This document shows, piece by piece, positions 5,469-8,842 of a stretch of DNA of 32,321 bases. Below the pieces are notes generated by a model. That model was not told the DNA's origin and made no database searches. It saw only the letters and a program-made list of their open reading frames with translations. A program made the position numbers and the translations under genes. Positions within the stretch are counted from its first letter, which is position 1, and every line of letters starts with the position of its first letter. Location of the stretch: positions 26,224 through 58,544 of the forward strand of contig PLPI01000041.1 in assembly GCA_003159495.1 (NCBI GenBank), written 5' to 3'. This DNA comes from a candidate division FCPU426 bacterium (GTDB lineage: Bacteria; Oederibacteriota; PGYV01; Palsa-1178).

Positions 5469-6671
5469 TTAAAGTATATTTAATCCGATTCCTTTTAAGT
5501 AATCATAAGTGGAATCATAATAATCTGCTTTTCTGGTTCTATCATAGCTATCTCCTTCTGGTACTACTATAACCATGCCTTGCCTTGCACGTGTGAGAAG
5601 AACTCGATAAGCGTTTTTTAAATACATTTTACGTTCAGCTTTATTTATATTATTCCACCTGTCGCCACAAAAAGACATGTGCTGCCATCCTTTATCTGTA
5701 TATCGAAAATCTGCGTCCCATGTAACACAAGCCCAATCAAGTTCCAAGCCCTGTACATGGAACTCTGTTGCTACATCTTCAAGATAATAGGACGAACGCA
5801 CGTCTTCTTTGCCATCGAGAAACCAATGAATAGGATCCATAGGACTTTTTACATCTATTGCGTGAGGTTTTAATCTTTGCGCTTGAGATGATACTACTAT
5901 TCCATATCTTTCAGTTCCTCTAGCCTGCAATCTAAGCCATTTTTTTGCTCTACTTAAATCTCTCGTCAAGACTATAGGATATTTATCTTTAAGTTTATTA
6001 TATGTTTCTTTTGCTTCCTTCTCCCTTAAATCAAGCATTTGTTTGACTAATAAAGATAAATTTTCAGCCCTAAAAGATCTCATCGATACTGCCAAGTGTA
6101 ATTCTTGATTGTAAAAAACATTTTTTCTTTTCTTTATTTCATTAAGCAATTCCTCTGTCCCATATTCAGAATCATGTAGTTTAGGTGATATATATATACG
6201 CCAGTCTGGAAATGACTTATTTAAGGCACGCACCCATTCAGAAATACCTGCTTCTCCAGTATTAATCTCCTGTCCACCACCAACAAGACAAACTATGACG
6301 GCCCAATCCTTATGTCTATCCATACATGATATAAGAAACTCCGGTTCAGATTGGTTGAAACCTTCATTTAGCGCTTCAACAAAAAAAAACGGCAGTTTAT
6401 TCTCTTCAACATACAGACATCTAATTGCTTGTATCAGGCAATAGTGGCTGTGCTCCCTCAAGTTTTTGTGATATAACAGGGCCCTGGCTGTATGAAACAT
6501 TGAATAATACAATTGCACCATTGTCCACTTAAAATCATTGTCATTAAATGTCTTTTCCGCCCTTTTTAAATCTAATTCTGCTGCCTGAAGCTCCGCAGGC
6601 GCTATTTCTTTTCCCCTCGAAAACTCCCTTATTCTACCCTTTTTCAGACACTCCCCGTACTCTGTGTTCAT
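5469..6671 (-). CDS. HEPN domain fused to the C-terminal half of a DUF2075-type helicase (chimera)
   Basis: The 400-residue frame joins two unrelated parts. Residues 1-103 are a HEPN domain of the kind paired with MNT nucleotidyltransferases ([25 protein letters not shown], with a candidate R-x4-H at Arg63/His68). From about residue 104 the sequence becomes the post-Walker-B part of a DUF2075/Schlafen-like superfamily-1 helicase: [21 protein letters not shown], then [15 protein letters not shown], a motif-V-like [10 protein letters not shown] (303-312) and a motif-VI-like [12 protein letters not shown] (354-365). Walker A and the Walker B DEAQ-type motif are absent, and the usual HEPN C-terminus is missing, so ATP hydrolysis is unlikely. 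The start is ATG 6671, with GGAGG just upstream, overlapping the MNT gene by 38 bases. It is best read as an in-frame deletion or recombination product, or a misassembly, centred near 6360. Confidence 0.8.
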
Positions 6672-7212
6672 CCCTCTCCTCCCACAGTATTACCCCTCTT
6701 TCAACCTCGCGCGCGTATAAAGCTTCCTTTTGTTTAAAACCCGCCGTTTCAACCGGCGTTTTTATGACTGCCTGAATTTTTCGTTTTAGTTTTATTTTTT
6801 TCAGGATTTCCCTTACCCTGTCAGGGTCATGGGATATTATAAAAATATCCATATCACTATCGGCCATATCTTCGCCCCTTGCGCAACTGCCATAAAGGGT
6901 TGCGGATATCATATGCCTGCAAAGCTTTTCAACTGTGCCATTTAATTCAACAATATTCATCATAATTTTAAACTGTTTTACAGCCGGATTTGATGCGTCG
7001 GCCGAATATATTCCAGTATTTCCCCTAATTTCGTTTTTTACAAAACCTTCCTTTATAAGCTGTTTCATTGCAAGAAAAACTCCGGCCCGGCTTATTCCAA
7101 GTGCTTTTTGAACCGCGCTGCCTGTAAAATCCCTGCCGCTGTTTTCACAAAGATATTTCAGGGTTTTCAGCGCGTTTGTGCCTTCAAGCAAATTTACAGC
7201 CTTTATTGACAT
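6634..7212 (-). CDS. MNT-type nucleotidyltransferase antitoxin with N-terminal winged HTH
   Basis: The 192-residue protein combines a winged helix-turn-helix (about residues 14-70, [29 protein letters not shown]) with a minimal nucleotidyltransferase domain. The latter shows the hallmark [19 protein letters not shown] at 106-124; Asp120 and Asp122 are the expected metal ligands. MNT proteins of this class neutralise a HEPN toxin, in characterised MntA-HepT pairs by adenylylating it. The next gene begins with exactly such a HEPN domain and overlaps it by 38 bases, giving a classical bicistronic pair. The HTH suggests that the antitoxin also binds the phased repeats over its own promoter at 7223-7277. 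Confidence 0.9.
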
Positions 7213-7222
7213 GCTCCACCTT

Positions 7223-7277
7223 GTTTAATATATTTAACACATGTTTATTATATTAAACTATTGTTTAATTGTCAAAC
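7223..7277 (-). promoter_or_regulatory. MNT-HEPN promoter with three phased operator repeats
   Basis: The minus strand carries an exact consensus sigma-70 promoter: TTGACA (7270-7275), a 17-base spacer and TATAAT (7247-7252). Three imperfect palindromes sit over it at exactly 20-base intervals: GTTTAATATATTTAAC (7223-7238), GTTTATTATATTAAAC (7243-7258) and GTTTAATTGTCAAAC (7263-7277). The 20-base period is about two helical turns, placing bound proteins on the same DNA face. Autoregulation by the HTH-MNT protein is the likely use. Confidence 0.85.
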
Positions 7278-7783: not shown

Positions 7784-8842
7784 TTACTTTTTTTTATATC
7801 TCACTCCCCGTCCCGTTCCTATCCTCTCAATAAGCCCTAACATCTCCAGTCTTTTCAGCGCCTGTGCCGCGCTTATGGACGGGATATTCAGTTCTTTTAC
7901 AACATCGGCGTTCTTTATCACATCATACTTCCCGAAAAGTCCCAGTATTAATCCCTGCCTTTCCGATATCATTTTTTCCGGCGCTGTGCCGCCCGCTATT
8001 TTCTCAACTATCCCGGCCTGTTCCCCGAGCACTTCAGTAAAAAAGTTTACAAACATCGAGGCGTCACATTTTTCAGTTTTCCTGAATTTTTGACCTTCAC
8101 GCAGGGCAATATAATACCGTTCCTTATTATCCTCTATTATCTTTTCATGTGACGCGTACTTAACAAAGGTATAGCCCTGTTTTAGCAAAAGAAGGTTTGT
8201 CAGTATCCTGCTTAACCTTCCGTTTCCGTCCTGAAAAGGATGAATGGCAAGAAACTCAAGTATGAAATTGGCAATTACCGGAACAGGATGGAATATTCCG
8301 GCCTTAAGCGTTTCATCCGCCCATTCTATAGCCGCTTTCATTTCAATAGGGGCGAGATATGGTTCGGTGGGGCTAAATACCACAGACCTCTCGCCTGTCA
8401 TGTTATTTATGGCCTCGACTATATTAGGCTGGTTTTTGTATTTTCCCCTGTGATGCCCGTCTTTGTCCGAAAATTCCAGGGTCATTTTATGCAGATGAAG
8501 GATTGAATTCTCGGAAAATTTAATATCTTTGTAATTATCAAATACGCTTTTTATGGTTTCCCCGTATCCCGCGACTTCCTGGGAATCCCGGTCTTTGAGC
8601 TTTGTCACCTTAAGCCCGCCCAGCAGTTTTTTTACCCCCTCATCGGACATTTGGGAGCCTTCTATCCTGGTTGAAGCGCCGGTGGAGGTTACCAGCACAT
8701 TTTGTTTAAGCCTGTTTATTACCTGCGCCCCGGCTTTTATGCCCATATCAACAATTCCCCGGACACGGTCAATATGGTCAAGTCTGGCTTTAAGGCCGGC
8801 CTGTTTTACCCTTAAAAGCCTTGCCGTCAAATATTCTTTCAT
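7784..8842 (-). CDS. Fic family protein (AMP-transferase) with N-terminal inhibitory motif and C-terminal winged helix
   Basis: The 352-residue protein has the full Fic core HPFQDGNGRLSR at residues 201-212, with the catalytic His and the anion-binding GNGR loop. The N-terminal segment has STRIEG (57-62), matching the (S/T)xxxE(G/N) autoinhibitory motif of class II Fic proteins, in which the Glu blocks productive ATP binding. The last 60 residues (LGLFGKYDVIKNADVVKELNIPSISAAQALKRLEMLGLI) form a winged helix, so the protein can probably bind DNA. Fic enzymes usually AMPylate Tyr, Ser or Thr hydroxyls on target proteins; the target here is unknown. GGAGG precedes the ATG. Its promoter is overlapped by three 10-base repeats that may be its own operator. 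Confidence 0.93.
   Translation of the reverse strand: MKEYLTARLLRVKQAGLKARLDHIDRVRGIVDMGIKAGAQVINRLKQNVLVTSTGASTRIEGSQMSDEGVKKLLGGLKVTKLKDRDSQEVAGYGETIKSVFDNYKDIKFSENSILHLHKMTLEFSDKDGHHRGKYKNQPNIVEAINNMTGERSVVFSPTEPYLAPIEMKAAIEWADETLKAGIFHPVPVIANFILEFLAIHPFQDGNGRLSRILTNLLLLKQGYTFVKYASHEKIIEDNKERYYIALREGQKFRKTEKCDASMFVNFFTEVLGEQAGIVEKIAGGTAPEKMISERQGLILGLFGKYDVIKNADVVKELNIPSISAAQALKRLEMLGLIERIGTGRGVRYKKK

Follow-up and report, generated by a model that had tools for sequence, protein, structure and literature searches.

In-frame fusion of a truncated HEPN gene with the second half of a PDC-S41 helicase gene in an MNT operon, a probable by-product of deletion

Does a HEPN/MNT operon that encodes half a helicase carry a new effector, or the debris of two broken genes? 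This question is raised by an open reading frame at positions 5469-6671 (minus strand) of the window, by which we mean the whole stretch of 32,321 nucleotides analysed here from a candidate division FCPU426 genome. Its translation is a single uninterrupted frame of 400 codons. The first-pass annotation described it as a HEPN toxin and a DUF2075-type helicase joined in one frame, and Pfam, PADLOC and the alignments to both parent families agree with this description. Residues 28-92 match the HEPN family PF05168 (36.5 bits, cut-off 22), covering only positions 5-67 of the 117 in the profile. Residues 104-371 match SLFN-g3_helicase (PF09848, formerly DUF2075) with 189.5 bits against a cut-off of 24, the match starting at position 98 of the 354 in the profile, and residues 102-398 match positions 355-651 of the 657 in the PADLOC profile PDC-S41 (E 2e-144), a partial rather than a full-length match; the helicase half as a whole corresponds to positions 355-653. 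That residues 104-400 might be a genuine extension of the HEPN domain was also checked, and the residues from 105 onwards align to the C-terminal half of PDC-S41. The coordinates of all features are given in Table 1.

Table 1. Features of the chimeric gene and of its operon, in positions of the window.
Feature	Position	Strand	Basis and remarks
HEPN half, residues 1-104 (PF05168)	6360..6671	-	Three helices retained, last helix and tail gone; relatives 50-62% identical
C-terminal half of PDC-S41 / SLFN-g3 (DUF2075) nuclease-helicase, residues 105-400 and stop	5469..6359	-	End of RecA1 and whole RecA2, without Walker A and Walker B
Fusion junction, ...VEALNEG (HEPN side) / FNQSEPEF... (helicase side)	6359..6360	-	Alignments of both parent families
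wHTH and minimal nucleotidyltransferase (MNT), PDC-M05A-like antitoxin candidate, 192 aa, intact	6634..7212	-	Pfam Polbeta/NTP_transf_2; PADLOC PDC-M05A 1.4e-16
GSX10DXD adenylyltransferase motif of MNT	6847..6891	-	Read from the translation; motif definition from PMC7641770
Palindrome just upstream of MNT, 17-nt arms, 2-nt gap, probable operator	7223..7258		As good in 1 of 500 shuffles

The junction, previously put at about position 6360, is placed by the alignments at 6359/6360, where HEPN codon 104 is joined to codon ~362 of a PDC-S41 gene. At the DNA level (blastn), helicase relatives are similar as far as 6360 and HEPN relatives from 6370 onwards, and GC3 drops at the join from 0.43 in the HEPN half to 0.25 in the helicase half. 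The frame is kept, for which the chance expectation is one in three. The longest stretch common to relatives of both parents around the join is at most 8 nt (shared-substring comparison), and within the window no repeat of 12 nt or longer covers the join (longest 11 bp), so that illegitimate joining fits and k-mer misassembly is disfavoured.

Relatives of PDC-S41 occur in 80 genomes or more, spread over many phyla, and are 62-77% identical to the helicase half over the aligned stretch, mostly 70-77%. The complete relatives, of ~650-680 residues, include an N-terminal nuclease-like stretch (RIDV...LEFKVG), a Walker A motif (GVPGAGKT) and a Walker B motif (FDEAQRAW). Both Walker motifs lie N-terminal to the join in the alignment and are absent from the chimera, as is the nuclease-like domain; the loss of these motifs and of the HEPN tail had been proposed from the sequence, and the alignments to intact relatives agree. 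The helicase half starts right after the Walker B helix and keeps the last α/β unit of RecA1 as well as all of RecA2. Judging from the missing motifs, the chimera is predicted to have lost its ATPase and nuclease functions, and ATP hydrolysis is not expected. What is kept appears undecayed, with 93 of 93 invariant and 142 of 142 near-invariant columns of an 82-sequence alignment preserved and the conserved C-terminal motifs present. A search of the host genome found no second PDC-S41 fragment besides the chimera, and the plasmid and phage searches returned only full-length helicases, 28-49% identical. Our literature search found no paper on PDC-S41 and none on DUF2075 in an anti-phage context.

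The PDC-S41 relatives show features of their own. Their identity is ~70% throughout Proteobacteria, Bacteroidota, Planctomycetota, Patescibacteria and others (loci L021-L100), which suggests that this single-gene defence candidate has been transferred horizontally on a very wide scale. In L042 (5000-6100), the PDC-S41 frame is broken just before Walker A and both flanks look intact, possibly owing to a sequencing error. In L024 (1-150), from a Geobacter MAG, PDC-S41 is broken off at the codons of the window junction, directly behind what looks like a transposase C-terminus, so that the fusion point coincides with a second, independent break. The upstream peptide reads as the end of an IS30-type transposase; a plasmid search with this tail gave no match.

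On the other side of the join, intact HEPN relatives have ~140 residues, and each of the closest ones lies beside a wHTH-MNT gene. They run ~36-40 residues past the join, with a LRE[DEN]ADYxxxW/F segment and a final helix, and the chimera lacks this tail. The [LM]RE-[DENM]-ADY motif is found in the closest relatives (L004-L010, L012, L013 and L020) and is missing from the chimera, in which the arginine and the tyrosine are gone and the upstream histidine (REHSH) is kept. For this HEPN class, the proposed active site comprises a basic residue and an upstream His, and the His of Rx4-6H is replaced by Asp in several cases (PMC3710099), while a conserved, potentially adenylylated Tyr is part of the class motif (PMC7641770). 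A related Class I toxin loses toxicity when the Arg or His of its motif is mutated (PMC4621449). Since the lost LRE[DEN]ADY segment holds both the basic residue and the tyrosine, inactivation of the HEPN half is supported, and the chimera is predicted from its missing motifs to lack HEPN catalytic capacity. HEPNs without the motif can still be toxic (PMC3710099), and the alternative residue proposed for catalysis may be the histidine kept in REHSH. The authors of PMC7641770 were aware of no biochemical study of toxicity or active site in Class II modules, so the inactivity of this HEPN half is something that we infer.

The MNT gene lies upstream of the chimeric gene and overlaps it by 38 bp, and its relatives adjoin HEPN genes in L004-L020. 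Against the NCBIfam MntA profile it gives 2.6e-9, under the cut-off of that profile. The operon context given in the first-pass annotation stands, with the MNT motif intact and the upstream palindrome found at relatives as well: those upstream of MNT at L007 and L010 agree with it in arm length and gap and are similar in sequence, and the one at L008 is longer, its arms being similar. Arms resembling GTYTAATATATTATAC are conserved before these wHTH-MNT genes (window 7223-7258; L007, L008, L010), and the palindrome likely serves as an operator for autoregulation in this Class II HEPN/MNT group. The N-terminal region of MNT is winged-helix-like (weak Pfam matches), which makes autoregulation a reasonable expectation and probably places the chimera within a regulated operon. 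Close to this operon, at 7784-8842 of the window, is a gene of the Fic/DOC family whose C-terminal region is winged-helix-like.

The 400-residue protein could be modelled, but with a mean pLDDT of 65.8, and of 34-50 in the HEPN half, and the model has no PDB match at E<=0.001. The AlphaFold model of an intact PDC-S41 relative reaches a pLDDT of 77.6, and its top-ranking PDB match is human SLFN11. We count this difference for loss of function, although the models are uncontrolled for the depth of the alignments, which had 11 rows for HEPN and 31 for the helicase.

The fusion was found in one genome only. With the chimera as query, 98 genomes yielded no second fusion; neither the 80 PDC-S41 loci of genome contigs nor 45 genomes of the phylum hold another; among 384 wider relatives, none of 11 further PDC-S41 genes begins at the join; and viral contigs contain neither a relative of the chimera nor the junction peptide. 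The genes flanking it in the window were compared with six sister genomes, where ApbA is found in three of the six (one a short fragment) and the lipoprotein-like gene weakly in one.

The intact near-invariant helicase columns imply that the fusion is either young or selected. Counting 3 x 0.75 neutral opportunities for substitution in each of the 142 codons gives about 320, none of which has been used, and from this we estimate a neutral divergence since fusion of less than about 1%, unless selection acts. The pN/pS ratio between the chimera and its relatives is ~0.18-0.25, like that of other pairs; with synonymous sites saturated and the comparison covering mostly pre-fusion time, it can neither date the fusion nor reveal present selection.

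We consider it probable that an illegitimate deletion, recent in date, inactivated the toxin gene of an MNT operon and attached to it a helicase half that is itself dead. A Class II (PF05168) HEPN gene in a wHTH-MNT/HEPN operon would have recombined non-homologously with a PDC-S41 gene, most simply by a deletion that, to judge from the alignments, removed the HEPN tail and, from the helicase, Walker B with all that precedes it. The resulting operon probably encodes an intact MNT regulator or adenylyltransferase beside an inactive chimera, a loss-of-function product that the turnover of mobile defence genes would have left behind. The clean two-parent make-up, the boundary defined within a few bases and the GC3 step support an origin by recombination, and the lack of another PDC-S41 piece in the genome is what a deletion predicts; the deletion-like join of two genes proposed earlier is thus borne out. 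The intact parents elsewhere and the lack of another copy of the fusion support the by-product reading. Against it, the kept frame and the undecayed helicase half are what selection would also produce, and the two parents are neighbours in no locus examined. An undecayed helicase half would equally be expected if no real fusion existed and two unrelated molecules had been joined in the assembly or library, and the GC3 step, the draft state of the assembly (145 contigs) and the confinement of the junction to one genome agree with such an artefact. We find it unlikely: misjoins require a common k-mer, which the parents' relatives and the repeats of the window do not offer, the join, which keeps the frame and is free of N's, is ~32 kb away from the start of a contig at least 58 kb long, and a search of the genome found no remaining half of the parent helicase. 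The Geobacter case suggests another route, in which PDC-S41 first received an IS30-type element at a preferred site, the FNQSEPEF codons, and what remained was afterwards fused to HEPN by a deletion. We regard this as very improbable, because it is a single parallel, spotted post hoc, and there is neither an IS sequence at the window junction nor, in the genome, an IS30 transposase that scores above cut-off.

A functional fusion, in which a HEPN-derived helical module with a RecA2 tail is an effector that MNT regulates and that binds nucleic acid or a partner, acting for instance as a dominant-negative protein against helicases or as a non-catalytic translation blocker, would account for the in-frame join, for the loss of not one near-invariant helicase residue, for the intact MNT motif with its family-type palindrome and for a pN/pS that resembles other pairs. 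Moreover, HEPN fusions to SF1 and other helicases have been described and interpreted as defence proteins (PMC3710099). Nevertheless, the fusion stands in a single genome, its HEPN half has lost a helix and the tyrosine, RecA1 is incomplete, the structural model is poor, and the pN/pS reflects mostly pre-fusion time at saturated sites, so we think this quite improbable; doubtful to a slightly greater degree is its narrower form, a selected MNT-controlled effector in which three HEPN helices and a RecA2-type nucleic-acid-binding tail act without the usual catalytic helix. The same losses and the low pLDDT speak against the earlier suggestion of a working toxin domain with a binding tail.

The result is of modest importance, as a case of defence-gene turnover. 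If the chimera is a deletion by-product, it gives a clear snapshot of mobile defence and toxin-antitoxin genes breaking and recombining, and a warning, as automated annotation will assign it to the helicases or to the HEPN toxins. Should it be functional, an antitoxin-type MNT operon would be able to recruit half a helicase as a new tail.

Among known systems, the operon is closest on one side to Class II HEPN/MNT modules (PF05168 with an NTP_transf_2 MNT; PDC-M05A-like), sharing a wHTH-MNT gene that overlaps the HEPN gene, the GSX10DXD motif and helices 1-3 at 50-62% identity, whereas its HEPN lacks the last ~36-40 residues including LRE[DEN]ADY and carries 296 foreign residues instead. On the other side it resembles PDC-S41, a nuclease-helicase with PF09848 that PADLOC lists as a single-gene defence candidate, with which residues 105-400 share all conserved columns and mostly 70-77% identity, but from which the lack of the N-terminal nuclease-like domain, of Walker A and of Walker B sets it apart. 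Nhi and AbiO are matched weakly near Walker A by intact PDC-S41 relatives (PADLOC, E 1e-6 to 1e-3) and not by the chimera. The HEPN-helicase fusions of PMC3710099 likewise join HEPN to helicase-type domains, but those are helicase subunits of R-M systems (SWI2/SNF2, SF2, SF1), whereas the chimera has only the second half of a helicase behind a cut HEPN.
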